The notes beneath the pieces are model-generated. The model was given only the letters and a program-made list of their open reading frames with translations, ran no database searches and was not told the DNA's origin. Position numbers and translations under genes: made by a program. Positions 5,857 through 53,129 of a stretch of DNA of 64,000 nt are shown here, one piece after another (positions within the stretch are counted from its first letter, which is position 1; the number at the start of each line of letters is the position of its first letter). Where the stretch lies: NCBI GenBank assembly GCA_016933955.1, contig JAFGTT010000036.1, positions 62,001 through 126,000 on the forward strand. Reading direction: 5' to 3'. Source of the stretch: Candidatus Zixiibacteriota bacterium. GTDB lineage: Bacteria > Zixibacteria > MSB-5A5 > GN15 > PGXB01.

Positions 5857-6327
5857 ATGATTGAGCTGGATATCCCGGGAGTCGGAGAAATCAGGTTGGC
5901 CTATCTTGTGGCCGATTTTTCCGGGACCTTGTCGGTTGATGGCATCATTCCGCCCGAAATTATCGATCGTCTTAATTCTCTGGCGGAAATACTGGAAATT
6001 CATATCCTGACCTCTGATACACATGGCAAGGCAAAGACCGCATTACAGAGATTAAATGGGACGATGCAATTACTTTCAGGGGATCGGCATGATATTCAAA
6101 AGGAAAAATATACCAGAAAACTGGGTGCCGAAAGGGTGATCGCACTGGGTAACGGTAACAATGATGTCCTTATGTTATCTTCAGCTCGGATCGGAATTGC
6201 CGTTTGCCTGAACGAGGGGTGTTCCGGCAAGGCTCTGGCGGCCGCGGATATTCTGGTAACATCAATCGATGATGCCCTTGCTCTCCTGGAACATCCGGCC
6301 CGTCTGAAAGCAACTCTCAGGGTATAA
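5857..6327 (+). CDS. Soluble P-type-ATPase-like HAD protein (COG4087-like)
   Basis: This 156-residue HAD-fold protein has motif I D20-F-S-G-T24, motif II near LTSDTHG (51-57) and motif IV GNGNND (98-103). The last resembles the hinge GDGxND of P-type ATPases. The second motif I aspartate found in HAD phosphatases is a serine here, as expected for the stand-alone P-type-ATPase-like family, so ordinary phosphatase activity is doubtful. There are no membrane segments. The substrate is unknown. A GGGGAG ribosome binding site precedes the ATG. It follows rubredoxin by 21 bases. Confidence 0.75.
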   Translation: MIELDIPGVGEIRLAYLVADFSGTLSVDGIIPPEIIDRLNSLAEILEIHILTSDTHGKAKTALQRLNGTMQLLSGDRHDIQKEKYTRKLGAERVIALGNGNNDVLMLSSARIGIAVCLNEGCSGKALAAADILVTSIDDALALLEHPARLKATLRV

Positions 6328-6348
6328 TTTTCCGCCGAATTTTACTTG

Positions 6349-6639
6349 TTAAATTTTCAGGCATATCTTATCGGCCTTGATAACTTCTACGTTATCCGGA
6401 AAAAGCAGGACTTCTCTTGTCCTGGTACACAAAATAAATCCCTTATAGCAGGTCAGATAGCGGAAATCGCTCTTCATCCATCCGCAACGTGAGACAATAA
6501 CCAGAGGTTCATCAAGCCGGGCCATCATCTGCCCGAATATTTCCAGGGACACTTCAACAACCGCTCCGGTCACTCTGAGTGCAGAGGCAATGAGGGACCT
6601 CTGCGATACGGCACCATCAGCATCATTTTTTTTAGTCAT
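6349..6639 (-). CDS. Hypothetical protein, 96 aa
   Basis: I do not recognise this protein. It has no signal peptide or obvious membrane helix and looks like a compact alpha/beta or beta protein, with the stretch VVEVSLEIFGQMMARLDEPLVIVSRCGW in its middle broken by charged turns. Two cysteines lie at about 52 and 64 and one each at 71 and 93. It converges on the HAD-like gene, with 21 bases between stops, and lies downstream of the glmS terminator on the same strand. There is no clear ribosome binding site. The frame is free of stops and has the codon use of its neighbours, so it is probably real. Confidence 0.5.
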   Translation of the reverse strand: MTKKNDADGAVSQRSLIASALRVTGAVVEVSLEIFGQMMARLDEPLVIVSRCGWMKSDFRYLTCYKGFILCTRTREVLLFPDNVEVIKADKICLKI

Positions 6640-6732
6640 TATAATTTAATAACAGGTTTGTGGGTTCACCAATTTATACCACCAAATCAGAGAAATATTC
6701 ACAAGGATTCGGAATTTATGAGAATTCAAATG

Positions 6733-6763
6733 AAAAAAGCCCGCCTGTGCGGGCGGGCTTTAT
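6733..6763 (-). terminator. Rho-independent terminator of glmS
   Basis: The perfect GC stem GCCCGCC / GGCGGGC has a short TGTGC loop and is followed, on the minus strand, by a run of six T. It lies just after the glmS stop codon. Confidence 0.85.
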
Positions 6764-6776
6764 GGATATTTTGCTA

Positions 6777-8606
6777 TTATTCCACCGTGACGCTTTTAGC
6801 CAGGTTTCGTGGCTGATCGATATGGCAACCCCTCAAAACGGCAATGTGGTAGGCCAGTAGTTGCAGCGGGATACTGGCCAGAATGGGTGTCAGAAGTGGT
6901 TTGGTATGCGGAATATAAATAACATGATTAACCTTATCGGCGATTTCAGTATCGCCTTCACTGGCAATGGCGATTACCTTTCCATATCGAGCGCGGACTT
7001 CCTCGATATTCGACAGAACCTTGTCATATACCGAATCCTTCAAAGCAATCACGACTACCGGCATATTTTCATCGATCAGGGCAATCGGCCCGTGTTTCAT
7101 CTCCGCGGCAGGGTAACCTTCGGCATGGATATATGAAATTTCCTTCAGTTTTAAGGCCCCCTCAAGGGCAGTCGGGAAATTAACCCCACGCCCCAGATAA
7201 AGGGCGTTTTCGGTTCGATAATATTCCTCGGCAATTTTCCTGATTTGATCTTCGGTTCCAAGAATGCTCTCCACCTGTTCCGGCAAACGGTTCAGAGCAT
7301 TCAGATATTCCATTCCTTGTTGAGCAGAAAGTTGTCTCATGCGTCCAAGCAGAATGGCAATCTGGTACAGAACCATTACCTGCGAGGTGAAGGCTTTGGT
7401 CGAGGCGACCCCGATTTCCGGTCCGGCATGGATATAAACACCGCCATCGGTTTCGCGGGCTATGGTCGAGCCGACCACATTACAGATACCCAGGACCGTG
7501 GCGCCCTTTTTCTTCGCCTCGCGCATGGCCGCCAGAGTATCGGCGGTTTCACCCGACTGGCTGATTACGAACAAAATAGTTTCTTTGCCGATAATCGGGG
7601 AACGATAGCGGAATTCCGACGCATACTCGACTTCAACCGGAATTCGGGCCAATTCTTCGATGGCGTACTCGCCGATAAGAGCTGAATGCCATGATGTTCC
7701 GCAGGCGGTAATAATTATTCGGCCGATATTGCGCAATTCGTCGTACTGCAGATTGAGACCATTCAGTCTTGGTATGCCTTCCTCTAAATTAAGACGACCC
7801 CGAATGGCATTCCGCAGTGTCATCGGCTGTTCATGAATCTCTTTCTGCATAAAATGCTTGTAACCGCCCTTTTCGATTTCATCGAGAGTCCATGATATTT
7901 CTTCGATATGCGGCGCCCGGAGAAGTTGCTGGGAGACATTGGTGATTTCGTAGCTGTTGGCCGTGACAGTCGCAATTTCGCCTTCTTCGAGATAAATAGC
8001 GCGATTGGTATAGGCCAGAATGGCGCTCATATCTGAGGCCACGAAATTTTCTCCGTCACCATGTCCGACCACCAGCGGCGAACCCTGGCGGGCCGCGACA
8101 ATCTTTCCGGGTTCATGGGAAGCGATAACAGTGATACCATAGGTTCCTTCGACCTGCGTCAGGGCGATTCGGACTGCCTCAGTAAGATCACCTTCGTAAT
8201 ATTCTTCAATAAGCTGGACCAGTATTTCGGTATCGGTTTGTGTCCGGAAAACATGGCCGCGGGATTCCAGGAAGGATTTCAAGGCCCGGTAATTTTCGAT
8301 AATACCGTTATGAACCAGGGCGATTTCATCCTTGCTGTCAAGATGTGGATGAGCATTTACCACCGTCGGTTCGCCATGGGTGGCCCAGCGCGTATGCGCG
8401 ATACCCATGCTTGATGAATATTCCTTATTGCGAATCTGCTCCTCAAGGGAGGCAATTTTACCGACGCATTTTTCCAGAACCAAACCGCTATCGGTGGATA
8501 AAACGAATCCGGCCGAATCATACCCGCGGTACTCCAGCCGTTTAAGCCCCTGAATCAACACCGGAAGAGCCTGCCGAAAACCAACATATCCGACAATGCC
8601 ACACAT
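6777..8606 (-). CDS. glmS: Glutamine--fructose-6-phosphate aminotransferase (isomerizing)
   Basis: GlmS makes glucosamine-6-phosphate from fructose-6-phosphate and glutamine, the first step toward UDP-GlcNAc for peptidoglycan and lipopolysaccharide. The 609-residue length is normal. The N-terminal amidotransferase domain starts MCGIVGYVG with nucleophile Cys2, and HTRWATHGEP follows near residue 71. Two SIS isomerase domains follow, with CGTSWHSA, SQSGETADTLAA and the C-terminal ending LAKSVTVE typical of the family. It lies 9 bases after glmM and is surely cotranscribed with it. No glmS ribozyme-like leader space exists, because the glmM gene is directly upstream. Confidence 0.97.
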   Translation of the reverse strand: MCGIVGYVGFRQALPVLIQGLKRLEYRGYDSAGFVLSTDSGLVLEKCVGKIASLEEQIRNKEYSSSMGIAHTRWATHGEPTVVNAHPHLDSKDEIALVHNGIIENYRALKSFLESRGHVFRTQTDTEILVQLIEEYYEGDLTEAVRIALTQVEGTYGITVIASHEPGKIVAARQGSPLVVGHGDGENFVASDMSAILAYTNRAIYLEEGEIATVTANSYEITNVSQQLLRAPHIEEISWTLDEIEKGGYKHFMQKEIHEQPMTLRNAIRGRLNLEEGIPRLNGLNLQYDELRNIGRIIITACGTSWHSALIGEYAIEELARIPVEVEYASEFRYRSPIIGKETILFVISQSGETADTLAAMREAKKKGATVLGICNVVGSTIARETDGGVYIHAGPEIGVASTKAFTSQVMVLYQIAILLGRMRQLSAQQGMEYLNALNRLPEQVESILGTEDQIRKIAEEYYRTENALYLGRGVNFPTALEGALKLKEISYIHAEGYPAAEMKHGPIALIDENMPVVVIALKDSVYDKVLSNIEEVRARYGKVIAIASEGDTEIADKVNHVIYIPHTKPLLTPILASIPLQLLAYHIAVLRGCHIDQPRNLAKSVTVE

Positions 8607-8615
8607 AATATAATC

Positions 8616-9971
8616 CTATTTTAAAAACTTCATAACTTCGGTCTTTATCATAGCCGTCAGCTTCTTCTCGTCGGTTTCGACTATAAGACGATAGATCGGT
8701 TCCGTATTGGATTTCCTTACCTGAAACCAGCCCCTGGAGAAATCGAATCGGAGACCATCGCGGCGGTCAATCCTCAATTTGTCAAAACCTGCTCGGGCCG
8801 CCTTTTCCATTCTGGCCACTTTAGCCTCATATCCGGAGGGCAGCGGCGCTTTCAACTTTATATTATGGTATATCGGCAAAGTTCCCGCCAACCGTGATAA
8901 GGTCATTTTGGATTCCGCCAGACTGGAGGCAATAATTGCCGCCCCGATAAGGGAATCGCGGCCATAATGAAAGGCCGGCAAAATCACGCCCCCATTACCT
9001 TCCCCGCCGATTACCGCCCGATGTTTCCTCAAACCGGCAATAACATTGGCCTCGCCAACCGGGGTATATATGGTCCGGGCTCCCATAGCTGTTGCCACCT
9101 CCTCGGTCACCCGCGAAGTCGAGAGATTTATCACCACCCTGCCCTTTTTACGGCCAAGAATATATTTCACCGCCAGAGCCAGAGTCAATTCCTCGCCGAT
9201 CGGGCAACCCTGTTCATTTACAAGGGCCAGTCGGTCGGCATCGGGATCACATGCCATTCCCAGATCGGCCCGGAATTTTTTCACGGCTTCCGAGAGCATG
9301 GCCAGATTGGCCGGAACCGGTTCCGGCGTATGGACAAAATCACCATTGTTCTCGCAGTTTAATCGGACAACCTCGATCCCGAGTCTCTCCAGAAGAAAGG
9401 GCAAGGCAATCGATCCGGCTCCATTGACAGCATCGACGACTACCCTCAGTTTCGCCTTTTTTATCTTCCCGACATTTATCTCTTTCAGCCTGACTATTCT
9501 CTCAATATGGCGATCAATCCAGGTGGCATCGGCCTTAAGAGATCCCAATCGGCGGTAATCTTTGAAGGCAAAATGGTGATTATTGTAAATACTCCTGATT
9601 TTATGCAGATCTTTCCTGTTGATAAATTCACCGCGGTAATTGAAAAACTTGAGTGCATTCCATTCGGCCGGATTATGACTGGCGGTGATACATATCCCCC
9701 CCGCCGCTTTTAATTCCGGTACGGCGATTTCCACGGTCGGTGTCGGGACTATACCAATATCGACAACATCGATTCCGACCCCGCGAAGGGCACCAATAGC
9801 GGTCATTTTTATTAACTGGCCACTGGGACGGGTATCCCGTCCAATAACCACCCTCCCTTTTTTAAGCATGGTGCCGAAAGCGGCGGTATAACCCGCAATC
9901 ATAAGCGGATCCAGTCCGAATCCAACCACTCCCCTGATGCCTGAGGTCGAAATCATCAATTTATTTTTCAC
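8616..9971 (-). CDS. glmM: Phosphoglucosamine mutase / phosphohexomutase
   Basis: This alpha-D-phosphohexomutase has 451 residues. The phosphoserine loop TASHNP places the catalytic serine near residue 98, the metal-binding loop is DPDADR, and the C-terminal phosphate-binding stretch is VRKSNTEPIYRLIVE. Family members interconvert sugar 1- and 6-phosphates. The pairing with glmS 9 bases downstream argues for glucosamine-6-phosphate to glucosamine-1-phosphate. From sequence alone a phosphomannomutase role is not excluded, since it resembles the shorter archaeal-like branch. The start is GTG at 9971 with a GGGGGA ribosome binding site. An in-frame ATG lies five codons later. Confidence 0.85.
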   Translation of the reverse strand: MKNKLMISTSGIRGVVGFGLDPLMIAGYTAAFGTMLKKGRVVIGRDTRPSGQLIKMTAIGALRGVGIDVVDIGIVPTPTVEIAVPELKAAGGICITASHNPAEWNALKFFNYRGEFINRKDLHKIRSIYNNHHFAFKDYRRLGSLKADATWIDRHIERIVRLKEINVGKIKKAKLRVVVDAVNGAGSIALPFLLERLGIEVVRLNCENNGDFVHTPEPVPANLAMLSEAVKKFRADLGMACDPDADRLALVNEQGCPIGEELTLALAVKYILGRKKGRVVINLSTSRVTEEVATAMGARTIYTPVGEANVIAGLRKHRAVIGGEGNGGVILPAFHYGRDSLIGAAIIASSLAESKMTLSRLAGTLPIYHNIKLKAPLPSGYEAKVARMEKAARAGFDKLRIDRRDGLRFDFSRGWFQVRKSNTEPIYRLIVETDEKKLTAMIKTEVMKFLK

Positions 9972-10074
9972 AAGATCCCCCGATAGCTTTCATATTATGG
10001 TTAATGGTCCCCATTTAAAATTTTCACAATATCATTTGTCGGTGGACAAATAAAACTCGCCAGCAAATATATGG

Positions 10075-10104
10075 TTGACTTTATCGGCGCGAAACAACTA
10101 ATTT
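10075..10104 (+). promoter_or_regulatory. Candidate sigma70 promoter for the hydrolase gene
   Basis: TTGACT and TAATTT are separated by 18 bases, about 30 bases before the ATG at 10136, in the divergent spacer between glmM and the hydrolase. The -35 is good and the -10 weak. Confidence 0.4.
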
Positions 10105-10135
10105 ATAAAAAACTCCTCCTTACTGGATTAAAAGA

Positions 10136-10936
10136 ATGCCCTTCTATAAGTATCAGAATTACGATCTACACTTCCAAAATAATGGCTCTGGAGAGATAGC
10201 CCTCTTATTCGTCCACGGTCTTGGGGGCGACGGTGGTAGCTGGAAATTCCAGGTCGAGTATTTTAAAGACAGATTCAGAGTCATAACGGTTGATCTCTTC
10301 GGGCATGGACGGAGTTCCAAGGAAATCGACCCGGTGGAGGCTCCGCGTCTTGATGCCGAAGCTCTGGTGGCGCTGATGCTGAATGAGATCAAGCAACCGT
10401 ATATTGTCATCGGACACAGCTTTGCCAGCGCCATACTCCCGGAAATGATCAAGCTCGGCGATTCTTTTATGAAAGGGGTTGTTTTCGCTGATTGTGTTTA
10501 TCAGGGTTTCGAGATCGTAATCGGACAACGGATGAGTTTTGCATCTTCAATGCTGGCTTTTTCCGATGAGCAATTACCCGAGGAAACCCGTAAATGGTAT
10601 TTAAATCTGCTGGCCGCCGACGCGAATCCTGATGAACTGGAGTTGATTTTATCTTCATTGAAGAATTGCGATTACCGCTGGTTGTTCCAATCAGTGGCCG
10701 GAACCCGAGAATATAATGAAAAATACCCGCCCGGAGAAACTCCAATGAGGGATAATGTGCAAATTTTCATCATGGAGGCCGACCAGGGAGTCGGTAATGA
10801 CTTTAAGAAATCCTGGGTAAATCATTTTAAAAACGCCCGTTATTACCTGTTTGAAAACAGCTGGCATTTCTTTTTCATTACCAAACATAGTAAATTCAAC
10901 AGCCTGATTGATGATTTTATCGAGGAATGCCTTTGA
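10136..10936 (+). CDS. Alpha/beta-hydrolase fold protein
   Basis: This 266-residue cytoplasmic alpha/beta hydrolase has the oxyanion-hole region FVHGLGGDG (25-33), the strand VITVDLFGHGRS, and a nucleophile elbow GHSFAS with Ser95. A likely acid lies in EADQG near residue 215 and a likely catalytic His in NSWHFFF near 246. Such enzymes cleave esters, lactones or related bonds; the substrate cannot be named. It is a single-gene unit, divergent from glmM and followed by about 170 bases with no recognised signal. Confidence 0.8.
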   Translation: MPFYKYQNYDLHFQNNGSGEIALLFVHGLGGDGGSWKFQVEYFKDRFRVITVDLFGHGRSSKEIDPVEAPRLDAEALVALMLNEIKQPYIVIGHSFASAILPEMIKLGDSFMKGVVFADCVYQGFEIVIGQRMSFASSMLAFSDEQLPEETRKWYLNLLAADANPDELELILSSLKNCDYRWLFQSVAGTREYNEKYPPGETPMRDNVQIFIMEADQGVGNDFKKSWVNHFKNARYYLFENSWHFFFITKHSKFNSLIDDFIEECL

Positions 10937-47733: not shown

Positions 47734-49119
47734 TCAGCGGTGGAAACGGCTGATGAACTGCTCCACCTCGGGGATGCCTCCCTGGAAAATCAGGTAACCA
47801 TCGAACGGTTCACGCTCGGTGATTTCACCGGCGATCGGGGTCAACATCATCTCTTTGACTTTTTCCGGTTCGCATGTCTGGGCCAGCACCCAGCCGAGTT
47901 TGGTATAGGCGGCCTCGGGGAGCATATTCCCGGCCGGAATAACTCCCAGTTCCATCATATCGCGGCCGGTATCGTAAACATACATCTGCACATAGCCCCA
48001 CAGAGTCTGCACCGTCATAAAGACGGCGATGCCGGATTCGTGGGCTTTCTTGAGAGCCGGATAGAGCGGCTTGTTGACATGACCCAATCCGGTTCCGGCG
48101 ATAACGATCCCCTTGTAGCCGTTGTCGATCAACGCTTCAATTATATCGGGGCGCATATTGGGATAATAATAGACAATCGAGACCATTTCCTCGAAAACCG
48201 CCCGGATATCGACCTGGCGGTCATCGCGGCGCTTTTTGTAATCATGCTTGATGGGTGTGAATTTCTCCGGGGTAACCATCGCAATCGGCACATCGCCGAT
48301 AGTGCGGAAGGTCGAGCGGTAGGAGGAGTGCATTTTCCTCACCCGCGTGCCGCGGTGGAGGAGGTTGTATTCATCGGAAGTCGGCCCGAACATGCAAACC
48401 ATGATTTCGGCGATATCGGAATGGCCGGCGGTGTAACAGGCGCACCGGAGGTTGAAGGCGGCATCGGACGAGGGGCGGTCCGAGGAGCGCTGGGAACCGA
48501 CCATGACGATCGGAACCGGGCTGTTCTGGACCATGTAGGACAGGATCGAGGCGGTATGATGCATGGTGTCGGTACCGTGGCCGATGACGATTCCCTTGAC
48601 CCCTTTTTCGATCTGGCGGCCGATTTCGACAGCCAGGGTTTTCCATTGTTCGGGGCCCATATTTTCCGAGAAGACGCCGAACAGTTTGAGGGTTTCGAGG
48701 TTGCAGATATCGGCCAGTTCCGGGACAGCACCGTAGAGCTCGCCCGGGGTGAAGGCCGGGATGACGGCGCCGGTGCGGTAATCGAGCCGGGAGGCGATGG
48801 TGCCGCCGGTGCCGAGCAGGGTGACATTGGGTTTATCCGGCGAGAAGGGAAATTCCTTTTCGGGGATTTTATAGATAGCTTCTTTATAGCCGGTCTCGAT
48901 GATTTCGTTGATACTGTCGGCCCGGATCCCGATATTGTAGCCGGTTTTGAGTTTGAGGACGATATGGTCGCCATCGGCGGTCTCGGAGCGCGGGAGGATA
49001 ACCCCCTCGAAATCGCCTTTGGTGGTTTTGAGCCGGACATTGGCCCAGACCCGTCCGCCGAGTGACTGGAGGACTTCTTTGGCCCGTCCTTTATATCCTT
49101 TCATGGCATTATCATTCAT
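47734..49119 (-). CDS. gatD: Archaeal-type Glu-tRNA(Gln) amidotransferase subunit D
   Basis: This 461-residue protein has the GatD layout: an N-terminal ~80-residue Tudor-like beta barrel (VWANVRLKTTKGDFEGVILP), then an L-asparaginase-type domain. Catalytic residues fit GatD: Thr107 in GTGGTIA, Thr183-Asp184 in GHGTDTM and Lys261 in RGTRVRKMHSS. In archaea GatD releases ammonia from glutamine or asparagine and GatE transfers it to Glu-tRNA(Gln). The extra N-terminal domain and the RKMHSS motif favour GatD over a simple asparaginase. No gatE is in the window. Its presence in a bacterium is unusual. A stand-alone asparaginase role remains possible. Confidence 0.82.
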   Translation of the reverse strand: MNDNAMKGYKGRAKEVLQSLGGRVWANVRLKTTKGDFEGVILPRSETADGDHIVLKLKTGYNIGIRADSINEIIETGYKEAIYKIPEKEFPFSPDKPNVTLLGTGGTIASRLDYRTGAVIPAFTPGELYGAVPELADICNLETLKLFGVFSENMGPEQWKTLAVEIGRQIEKGVKGIVIGHGTDTMHHTASILSYMVQNSPVPIVMVGSQRSSDRPSSDAAFNLRCACYTAGHSDIAEIMVCMFGPTSDEYNLLHRGTRVRKMHSSYRSTFRTIGDVPIAMVTPEKFTPIKHDYKKRRDDRQVDIRAVFEEMVSIVYYYPNMRPDIIEALIDNGYKGIVIAGTGLGHVNKPLYPALKKAHESGIAVFMTVQTLWGYVQMYVYDTGRDMMELGVIPAGNMLPEAAYTKLGWVLAQTCEPEKVKEMMLTPIAGEITEREPFDGYLIFQGGIPEVEQFISRFHR

Positions 49120-49207: not shown

Positions 49208-49369
49208 AAATGGGTTCGTTTCATCCTTCGAGTATTTTTTCAAAATGGGTTCGTTTCCTCAGTAAAAAAGTTTTCGGGAAAAATGGGTTCGTTTCATCCG
49301 CCGGAATTTTTCCCACCGCAAGCGGCGGGGCACCTCGATTTTGGGATAGGTCATGAAATGGGTTCGTTT
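49208..49369. repeat. Block of four AAATGGGTTCGTTT repeats in alternating types
   Basis: The exact 14-mer AAATGGGTTCGTTT starts at 49208, 49243, 49281 and 49356. Copies 1 and 3 continue CATCC; copies 2 and 4 continue to TCAGTAAAAA and AGTTTT. This gives an A-B-A-B order with spacings 35, 38 and 75. The spacing is too irregular for CRISPR. The block fills most of the gap between gatD and gajB. Confidence 0.8.
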
Positions 49370-49503: not shown

Positions 49504-51237
49504 TCAGGAGCGCGGGGCTCCTGGTTTACTTGGCTGAAAAATTGTCTCGATGGCTTTATCTTTACTACAAATCCAAAGCACTTTTCTTGCCCTCGATGCA
49601 GCAACATAGAAACATCTTGTATCATCTAGATGGTCGGAGCCAAAAAGGTCATGCTGTGTAAGGCTTTCCTTTATTTTACTGACAGTCAGCTTCCACCTAC
49701 CCCGACCGCTGTCAACGTATATCATAACCGCATCAAACGTTCTACCCTTGATTTGATGGATGTTTTGAATTGTGATCTCCCTAACTTCAGCCTCATCTGC
49801 TTCTATTAGCAAATCTTTATTCAAGTTGTTAAGGTCTGCCTGATTGCGTTTCTTCTTAAGTTCACATGCCCGACAACCGATTTCTGAGGTAGCTTCATTT
49901 AGCACTACGTTTACCTCTCTAATCCATTCGAGAAGTGATAACTCTAGCGAAGGTAGTCTCTTGCAGGTAGACCAGATTAGCCATTTGCTGTCAAGATCAC
50001 CAAGTTTATGGTCATGCAATTGCCTTGAAGATTTAACCCGTTCGCCTTTTGAAGAGAAATAGAGGAATCTAAGAAGACATTCGTATGCCTGTTTATATTC
50101 TGCTCTATCGAAGTGTATTTTCGCCCTTAGAGGCAATGCTTGAATATCTGAGTTTTCTACAGCAAACAAATCAGTCTCTTTGATCTTACTTTTCCGAATA
50201 TTTGCAACTGACCTATGCCCACCATAGAGAATAGCCACATTATCGGGTCCAATCATAATACCTTTGTCTCTTGCATAGGCAACGAACTCAGCCAAAGCAT
50301 TGTTAAAATCGTCTGCTTGCCGGGCAATCACTTCGGCGTCACTTATTTCCGTCCGATTAGTATCCTGAGTTATTGATCGAGCATTATGGAACTTATTGAG
50401 GAATTGACAAATGCTTTCACCACAGCGTTGGGTTTCCGTGATACTGAGTGACTGCCAATCGCCGTCTTGGTCTTTTGCGATAATTAACTCTGGATTGGCA
50501 TCTCTCCACTCATAAATAGACTGATATGGGTCACCTAACAGCATGATTTCAGAGTGCCCTTGTCTCTTCAATTCATCAATTATCGCCATTTGCGTTTCAG
50601 AGCAATCCTGCGCTTCATCGACAATGATAAATGGAAAGCGATTGCATAGCGCTTTTGTAAAACCAGGGAATGACCTAAGAATCTCAAGGCAATAGTAGCT
50701 GACATCCCCTTGAGTGATAATATTTCCTTTCCTGAGTTCTCGTTTTACAACTACCAAATACTGCTGAGCTTCTGCACTTATTGTCTTGTTCTTCTGTTGA
50801 TATATCACATTTCCAGAGCAATCGTGGCAAATATTCTGGCCACTTAAACCAAACTGCTTTAATTTCGGGAATCGGTCATCAATCCATAATGAATTTACGT
50901 CCAGTATGATAACCTTCTGCGTCTTCTTTTCTAGTAGCCGGTGACCTGTGACGCGAATCACAAATCCATTGAGAAAGCTATCTATTGTTCCAACGAAGTG
51001 AGGTCCCTTTACCTGATCGCCAGTCAATTCATAATACATTTGTCTAATGGAGTCTTTGGCTACATTTGTAAAGGATAAAACGGCAATACCTTGGTATTCC
51101 CTCAATTGTCTTTTTTCCATTAAATGCCGCAACCTATGCGCAACGACTGTTGTCTTGCCACTCCCTGGGCAAGCGGTCAAAACAATAAGCCCCTCGGCAT
51201 TAACCGCGGCCTGCTGACTGGTTGTAAGTTCAATCAT
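49504..51237 (-). CDS. gajB: Gabija anti-phage system helicase GajB
   Basis: This UvrD/Rep-type superfamily 1 helicase has about 577 residues. It has a Q-motif-like ELTTSQQAAV, Walker A ACPGSGKTTVV, motif II DEAQDCSETQ and motif VI FYVAASRARKVLWI. It lacks the long insertions of full UvrD. Two CxxC pairs (CHDC near 140 and CRAC near 465) are unusual and might bind metal. I start at ATG 51237; its ATGATTGA overlaps the gajA stop, so translation is coupled. With gajA it forms a Gabija system, in which GajA and GajB assemble into a complex that stops phage. Codon use is AT-rich compared with gatD and mfd. Confidence 0.85.
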   Translation of the reverse strand: MIELTTSQQAAVNAEGLIVLTACPGSGKTTVVAHRLRHLMEKRQLREYQGIAVLSFTNVAKDSIRQMYYELTGDQVKGPHFVGTIDSFLNGFVIRVTGHRLLEKKTQKVIILDVNSLWIDDRFPKLKQFGLSGQNICHDCSGNVIYQQKNKTISAEAQQYLVVVKRELRKGNIITQGDVSYYCLEILRSFPGFTKALCNRFPFIIVDEAQDCSETQMAIIDELKRQGHSEIMLLGDPYQSIYEWRDANPELIIAKDQDGDWQSLSITETQRCGESICQFLNKFHNARSITQDTNRTEISDAEVIARQADDFNNALAEFVAYARDKGIMIGPDNVAILYGGHRSVANIRKSKIKETDLFAVENSDIQALPLRAKIHFDRAEYKQAYECLLRFLYFSSKGERVKSSRQLHDHKLGDLDSKWLIWSTCKRLPSLELSLLEWIREVNVVLNEATSEIGCRACELKKKRNQADLNNLNKDLLIEADEAEVREITIQNIHQIKGRTFDAVMIYVDSGRGRWKLTVSKIKESLTQHDLFGSDHLDDTRCFYVAASRARKVLWICSKDKAIETIFQPSKPGAPRS

Positions 51238-53002
51238 TCGTGATATACTCAAATGCATCCCGGATATACTTCGGTACAGCCAATGAAAATCGGATGTTCT
51301 TTATGTCTTCCTGAATAACGGCAACCAGCTTGTCCGCAAAATCAGATTTGCTTGAGCTTGATACTACACATTTCCATACTTCAATACCAAGCTCTTTATC
51401 ACTTGTAGTGTCAAATGTAGTATCAAGCAATTGTCCTAACCTGTGCCTAAAGACCATATTCGCCATGCCCAGTTCAACTTCAAGAGTCTTCCTTGCCATA
51501 AATAATGCAATTCGCTTGTTTTGAGCTCTAAGAGTATCTACCTCACTCTTCAGCCCGGCCGCCCTTGCAGATATTGGGGCACTATCGAAAATAGAAATGA
51601 TCTCCGATGTATCCCGTAAATTACCATCCCTTGTAAAACGCATATCATTCGGACAATCTCTGCCTGTTCCGCGATCATCATCCGTAATGATTACAGACTT
51701 GACGTTCGATTCGCTGAACACATTGCTCACAAGATCGATATATCTGCTAAATGACACGCCTTGAATATTAACTATCTCGATCCCTTGTTTCTCAAAGCTA
51801 TCATTAGGATCACGATACATATAATCCCAGAATGACTTCAACAAGATTGCCTCGGTAATCCCTTCCACGAAAATTATGGAACGAGCAAAAAACAATTGAG
51901 ACTTAGTAACATCCAGAAACAGTTGCAGGAATAGTTTATTAGATTCCTGAATACTAGCGTTTTGCAGAAGAAGACTCTTCACATTGTCCGCGTTTCTGCA
52001 AAGTATATTGATATTGTTCAAATCTACAACTGATGCCAATGTCGGGGAATGCGACGTTAAAATCACCTGAATATCTTTGTATTCGTTTTGAAGAAATTCT
52101 AATAGCAGTGATTGAAGCTGTGGGTGCAAATGAGCTTCAGGTTCTTCAATAATCAGACAGCTGAACTTGTGAGGAGTGAGTACTTCATCGTATTTCAATT
52201 CAGTCAGAACAGTTGAGATGAATATAAGATTATTATATCCCAACCCATTTGTGCTAATATCAAGACCCTTAGCAGCGCAGGTCATGCGAATATTTGAAAG
52301 AATTTTCGTAAATTCTTGATCGACGAAGTTCAGCTTAATCTTATTGTCATCACCGCGCAGTGTGAGTTTATCAATATTCGGATTTGTATTCTTCTCAAGC
52401 TTAAGTACAGGGTTCTCATCGCCCTGCAAGGCCAATGCTTCCCGGTTGGCTTTTTGGAATATTGATTCGAACTCTACACCTTCATCATCCAGATTTTTCT
52501 TAAGAATATTACCAACACGGCTGCGGTAGCCCGGTTTGAATTCGGAACTAACATCCCTCAATGCAGGAAGAAATATAGCCCTTAGATAAGCTAGAATATC
52601 ATATGGGTTTGTTGTGTCGCCGGTCTCACCGCACTTGACCTGTGGCTGTATTTTCGTACCTCGGAGGTTGAAGTTGAAATCAAACCTGAGCTTATGCTTG
52701 CCATGTTCCCCGTCAAGAATCAACGCCTCAAGAAATGCTGCCTGCTGAGCATCATTCAGGCCCGAGAACTCTATTCCGATACTAATTGGCTTCGTTGGAT
52801 CGTGAAAATCAGCCTCAGAAAGCCATACATTCTTATCTGAGCTTCCATAATTCAGGCAAATAACCAACGCTTCTACTATAGTGGTTTTTCCAATGTTATT
52901 TTCACCAATGAGTAAATTTAATCCGTTCTTTAGTTCAATTATTATTGGATTATTACTGGTGGCCTTTTTAAAATTGGATATTTCAAGTCTTGAGATATAC
53001 AT
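51230..53002 (-). CDS. gajA: Gabija anti-phage system ATPase-nuclease GajA
   Basis: This OLD-family protein has about 590 residues from ATG 53002 (GAGG site 9 bases upstream). An ABC-type ATPase lies N-terminal: Walker A GENNIGKT about 33-40, a signature-like STNGLGYNNL, Walker B CLIIEEPEAHLHP and a switch TSHSP. The C-terminal TOPRIM nuclease has its Glu in IFVEGITEA and the Asp cluster in IITDDDRG. In known Gabija systems GajA nicks DNA when nucleotides are depleted, and GajB senses DNA ends. All key residues are present, so the system looks intact. Confidence 0.88.
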   Translation of the reverse strand: MYISRLEISNFKKATSNNPIIIELKNGLNLLIGENNIGKTTIVEALVICLNYGSSDKNVWLSEADFHDPTKPISIGIEFSGLNDAQQAAFLEALILDGEHGKHKLRFDFNFNLRGTKIQPQVKCGETGDTTNPYDILAYLRAIFLPALRDVSSEFKPGYRSRVGNILKKNLDDEGVEFESIFQKANREALALQGDENPVLKLEKNTNPNIDKLTLRGDDNKIKLNFVDQEFTKILSNIRMTCAAKGLDISTNGLGYNNLIFISTVLTELKYDEVLTPHKFSCLIIEEPEAHLHPQLQSLLLEFLQNEYKDIQVILTSHSPTLASVVDLNNINILCRNADNVKSLLLQNASIQESNKLFLQLFLDVTKSQLFFARSIIFVEGITEAILLKSFWDYMYRDPNDSFEKQGIEIVNIQGVSFSRYIDLVSNVFSESNVKSVIITDDDRGTGRDCPNDMRFTRDGNLRDTSEIISIFDSAPISARAAGLKSEVDTLRAQNKRIALFMARKTLEVELGMANMVFRHRLGQLLDTTFDTTSDKELGIEVWKCVVSSSSKSDFADKLVAVIQEDIKNIRFSLAVPKYIRDAFEYITND

Positions 53003-53129
53003 TTTGAGGAACCTCAGATTCAATTATATACAATTGCTTCTTTTCAAAATTTACAACATTTGATTTAATTCCAGTAATATTAAACGATCCAATTATCTCA
53101 CAGTTACCTAATGAATATCAGATTCCATC

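Follow-up and report, generated by a model that had tools for sequence, protein, structure and literature searches.

What does GatD, the amidase subunit of an amidotransferase regarded as archaeal, do in a bacterium? A 2022 review describes GatDE as exclusive to archaea and as an archaeal signature, with archaeal Gln-tRNA formation always indirect (PMC8762117). Another 2022 review holds that archaea are today the sole carriers of GatDE and that none of them has GlnRS (PMC9499178). Co-evolution of GatDE with tRNA(Gln) has been put forward to explain why archaea never acquired GlnRS (PMC8762117, PMC9499178). Our literature search, mostly without subscription papers, returned no report of bacterial GatDE or of archaeal GlnRS, and priority is not established. 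The window analyzed here (the whole stretch of 64,000 nucleotides from a Candidatus Zixiibacteriota genome) carries a gene that a sequence-only reading had taken for an archaeal-type gatD with no gatE beside it, serving either a GatDE-like path or a retained asparaginase function.

Identity of the window GatD

The features of the locus, all on the minus strand, are as follows.

47734..49119, minus strand: gatD, Glu-tRNA(Gln) amidotransferase subunit D (amidase subunit), 461 aa, ATG start; assigned by profile, domain, PDB and tree
48901..49041, minus strand: GatD_N domain, GatD residues 27-73; Pfam PF18195, 51.6 bits (cut-off 25.7)
48808..48810, minus strand: catalytic Thr104 in the TGGT motif; motif position and alignment with archaeal GatD
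48568..48573, minus strand: catalytic Thr183-Asp184 in the HGTDT motif; motif position and alignment with archaeal GatD
48334..48336, minus strand: catalytic Lys262 in the RKMH motif; motif position and alignment with archaeal GatD
49504-51258, minus strand: GajB, 349 bits; overlaps GajA
51230-53023, minus strand: GajA, 368 bits; overlaps GajB

The window protein scored 516.4 bits against NCBIfam TIGR02153 gatD_arch (cut-off 324) and 513.6 bits against PRK04183 GatD (cut-off 310), whereas the type I asparaginase model reached 380 bits. Pfam placed the GatD_N domain first and both asparaginase domains after it, and T104, T183, D184 and K262 are all kept, so the N-terminal domain and the four catalytic positions previously read from the sequence are indeed present. 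Among PDB entries, the protein is closest to two archaeal GatDs, 1zq1_A and 2d6f_A (411-414 bits), the next asparaginase scoring 147, and in the GatD tree it groups with GatD and not with asparaginases. Taken together, these comparisons identify the open reading frame at 47734-49119 (minus strand) as a true GatD.

The neighbours of gatD are hemL and a Gabija pair; the earlier remark that no gatE adjoins it was correct, the partner being encoded elsewhere in the genome. The Gabija-type defence pair (49504-53023, minus strand) lies just upstream of gatD. Between gatD and GajB, the direct repeat AAATGGGTTCGTTTC occurs in four copies, at window positions 49208, 49243, 49281 and 49356, the last with one mismatch; the repeat set was absent from 100 of 100 shuffles.

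The GatE partner

The host genome, a 3.38-Mb draft assembly (38 contigs, 96.6% complete), encodes a GatE of 637 aa on contig C32, a different contig from that of gatD. This protein scored 417 bits against TIGR00134 (cut-off 319.6), and its best PDB match is an archaeal GatE (300 bits, against 94 for GatB). Its predicted structure (pLDDT 79.8), which has one inserted domain and a helical C-terminal domain, is closest to archaeal GatE (TMt 0.77-0.80). The catalytic-domain motifs are invariant in all 16 bacterial GatEs compared. In the tRNA-binding C-terminal part, Pfam found GatB_Yqey in five of the 16 and GAD, weakly, in four, and recognized neither in the host GatE; by these profile comparisons, the C-terminal region of bacterial GatE is divergent. 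The GatEs of two split-gene genomes, G000 and G010 (L032, L030), sit on a long branch away from the operon-type GatE of G001 from the same family, and the GatDs of G000 and G010 do not look unusually divergent.

Distribution in relatives and across bacteria

We searched 98 related genomes, of which 60 formed a good subset (completeness of 90% or more, contamination of 5% or less); some genes in these genomes are divided between contigs. Of the 98, 63 have GatD and 59 have GatE above the cut-offs. In the good subset, 44 genomes have both genes, one has GatD only, one GatE only and 14 neither. The two genes adjoin in most relatives and are separated in part of the host's own family, to which the split is local. 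For gatD, dN/dS is about 0.01-0.08, and for gatE it is 0.11-0.13 (some pairs have a nearly saturated dS), which indicates purifying selection on both genes.

These data bear on the suggestion that GatD has been kept as a stand-alone asparaginase without a tRNA role. The distance between gatD and gatE in the host genome would fit such a protein, but the genome does encode GatE, both genes occur in 44 of the 46 good relatives having either, they are adjacent at most loci elsewhere, and the tree groups the protein with GatD. With a partner present, we consider this explanation very unlikely. The other option, a GatDE-like path in this lineage, gains from the same co-occurrence and adjacency and from the failure to detect GatA or GatB in the host.

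A scan of GTDB genomes gave at least 583 pattern matches, at least 570 of them encoding GatE relatives. Among the best 80 of these at least 570 stretches, 79 carry a bacterial label, with about 20 phyla represented according to the record titles, and 54 of the 80 loci have gatE followed by gatD on the same strand. Long frames had raised the suspicion of a GatE-GatD fusion, which was rejected since they proved to be two genes in frames of different length. Across phyla, GlnRS scored above the cut-off in 41 of 50 GatE-encoding genomes tested, a further two had partial GlnRS genes at contig ends, and GatA was above the cut-off in 17. Judged by gene content, GatDE is widespread in bacteria, usually together with GlnRS, and the initial framing as a single odd bacterial case was too narrow.

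The association with GlnRS is also seen in the 60 good relatives, of which 44 have both GatDE and GlnRS, two GatDE only, five GlnRS only and nine neither (Fisher p = 6e-6, shared ancestry ignored). In the same 60, GatCAB occurs alone in nine, GatDE and GlnRS without detectable GatA in about 26, and all three in 18. The good genomes G096 and G082 have GatDE and GatCAB without GlnRS. GatDE as the sole route in G097 and G115 was set aside as unsafe, G097 having a C-terminal piece of GlnRS at a contig end and G115 a GlnRS piece adjoining a run of N.

We also considered archaeal contamination, as the source is a draft genome. This reading is hardly credible, given that the genes recur above the cut-offs in the relatives as counted above, that they are present in the single-contig records CP054675.1 and CP070718.1, and that the trees, whose archaeal sampling comprised one phylum and two PDB sequences, place bacterial GatE and bacterial GatD each in a supported clade of its own outside canonical archaeal GatE and GatD.

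Aminoacyl-tRNA synthesis in the host

The host encodes a GlnRS of 559 aa (753 bits), an AsnRS (633 bits) and one copy of GluRS. GatA was not detected by profile search in this 96.6% complete genome, nor was GatB, the lone GatB_N match being GatE; the absence of GatCAB is therefore not absolute. Of the pattern predicted for a GatDE path (GatE without GatCAB or GlnRS), the presence of GatE and the lack of detectable GatA and GatB were borne out, and the absence of GlnRS was not; the counter-case of GatCAB without GatE was not seen either, nor was a placement of the protein inside bacterial asparaginases. Since GlnRS is present, Gln-tRNA formation does not depend on GatDE alone, and the GatDE pathway is formally dispensable. 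The positions that confer glutamine specificity in E. coli, Cys229 and Gln255, are kept in the host GlnRS, and covert charging of glutamate by this enzyme was rejected on that ground. The GluRS and GlnRS genes lie close together and convergent in the host (G000:C27, about 6100-10670; L002, L003) and are also near each other in several relatives.

The two host tRNA(Gln) genes, with UUG and CUG anticodons, both have U1:A72 and G73, whereas archaeal tRNA(Gln) has A1:U72 and A73. Given this difference and the poorly recognized C-terminal domains of GatE, tRNA recognition cannot be assumed to be the same as in archaea.

In relatives that have GatCAB and lack both GlnRS and GatDE, GluRS is 48-55% identical to the host GluRS. 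Without GlnRS, these relatives have to rely on GluRS for charging tRNA(Gln), which makes a non-discriminating ancestor of the host GluRS plausible. The column of E. coli Arg350 proved uninformative as a marker of discrimination, because arginine also occurs in the GatCAB-only, necessarily non-discriminating relatives. At the column of E. coli 317, chosen post hoc and with exceptions, GatCAB-only genomes have D or E, and genomes with GatDE and GlnRS have H or N.

Proposed function

The chemistry of GatDE, an amidase coupled to a kinase/transamidase on the way to Gln-tRNA(Gln), is established knowledge (PMC9499178). We propose that the window GatD and the host GatE probably form a functional heterodimeric Glu-tRNA(Gln) amidotransferase of a bacterial-type GatDE subfamily, working parallel to GlnRS. 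In this scheme, GatD would free ammonia from glutamine or asparagine, GatE would phosphorylate the glutamate of Glu-tRNA(Gln), and the ammonia would displace the phosphate to yield Gln-tRNA(Gln). The substrate would most likely be Glu-tRNA(Gln) formed by the host GluRS, and Gln-tRNA(Gln) would come from two routes, the Gln-specific GlnRS and GatDE. Both subunits, their conservation, domain content and distribution, and the association with GlnRS are supported directly by the data above. We infer enzymatic activity of the pair, formation of Glu-tRNA(Gln) by GluRS and the cause of the tie to GlnRS.

The same chemistry could run at a different flux, with GlnRS as the main route, GluRS mostly discriminating and GatDE only rescuing occasional mischarged Glu-tRNA(Gln). 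This explanation, which is compatible with a parallel route, has a real though clearly lower chance of being right. It agrees with the joint occurrence of GatDE and GlnRS in the relatives and across phyla and with the Gln-specific active site of GlnRS, but the sequence results do not tell a main from a rescue route, and G096 and G082, which have GatDE and GatCAB, lack GlnRS.

Action on a different substrate, such as Asp-tRNA(Asn) or a non-translational target, is unlikely. Redundancy of the glutamine role with GlnRS and the divergent C-terminal region of GatE would suit it; set against this, both GatD and GatE score as GatDE, and the host AsnRS removes the need for amidation of Asp-tRNA(Asn). 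A requirement for GatDE in forming Asn-tRNA was rejected because of the same AsnRS.

Bacterial-type GatE and GlnRS in an archaeal phylum

Returning to the bacterial-type GatDE subfamily, some genomes of an archaeal phylum (reference record: Candidatus Thermoplasmatota) also carry bacterial-type GatE, and two of them, G176 and G167, have canonical GatE as well. In the careful GatE tree, bacteria form a clade (90/82) and the archaeal bacterial-type genes are basal to it in an unresolved branching order, which leaves the direction of transfer undecided.

We searched for GlnRS in 50 genomes of this phylum, picked so that every genome with bacterial-type GatE was covered, and found GlnRS above the cut-off in ten (L305-L314). 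Eight of the ten have clearly bacterial-type GatE, G223 has an ambiguous long-branch GatE and G191 only the canonical one; conversely, G202 and G219 have bacterial-type GatE without GlnRS. The resulting counts (both 8, one without the other 2 and 2, neither 38) give Fisher p = 3e-6, and this repetition of the GatE-GlnRS link is also what occasional rescue by GatDE would lead one to expect. The ten GlnRSs form a single clade within bacterial GlnRS, with subclades resembling those of GatE.

In five of the ten genomes, glnS has archaeal-type tRNA-Gln or tRNA-Glu genes nearby. A tRNA(Gln) with A1:U72 is near glnS in G152, G161, G176 and G156, with G73 in the first two and A73 in the last two, and a tRNA(Glu) is near it in G156, G167 and G176. 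All ten genomes also encode an archaeal-type GluRS, as judged from its length and its GlnRS-model score. Both observations argue against contamination of these genomes, with the caveat that gatDE adjoins a bacterial-type Tgt in G161. Entry of bacterial-type GatDE into archaea along with a bacterial tRNA(Gln) was rejected, since the tRNA(Gln) near archaeal GlnRS keeps A1:U72.

More tentatively, and at somewhat less than even chances, bacterial-type GatDE and GlnRS may be functionally coupled and move together between bacteria and archaea. Both domains would then have a dual system for Gln-tRNA, direct and indirect, and some archaea would use a functional GlnRS encoded close to their native tRNA(Gln) genes. 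If the results on gene content and trees hold, GatDE is widespread in bacteria and both Gln-tRNA routes coexist in many genomes, some archaea have acquired GlnRS, and how tRNA(Gln) identity accommodates both routes becomes a directly testable question.

Comparison with known systems

The host system resembles archaeal GatDE of Methanothermobacter thermautotrophicus (2d6f) and Pyrococcus abyssi (1zq1) in having both subunits, the GatD_N domain, the asparaginase-like catalytic residues, the GatB/GatE catalytic domain and the overall predicted GatE fold. It differs from canonical archaeal GatDE in the separate clades of its subunits and the divergent GatE C-terminus, and from the canonical archaeal pathway in its GlnRS, its bacterial-type GluRS and its tRNA(Gln) with U1:A72 and G73. 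With type I L-asparaginase, the window GatD shares the catalytic domain and residues, whereas the GatD_N domain and the GatE partner set it apart.

The catalytic domain of GatE is also that of GatB, and GatCAB and GatDE belong to the same reaction class. Unlike a GatCAB system, the host has no detected GatA or GatB, and its GatE exceeds the gatE_arch cut-off. In Thermus, Deinococcus and Bdellovibrio, GatCAB coexists with GlnRS and AsnRS and serves Asn-tRNA (PMC4206432). The host is like these bacteria in retaining an amidotransferase beside direct synthetases, and unlike them in that the amidotransferase, present together with AsnRS, is GatDE.
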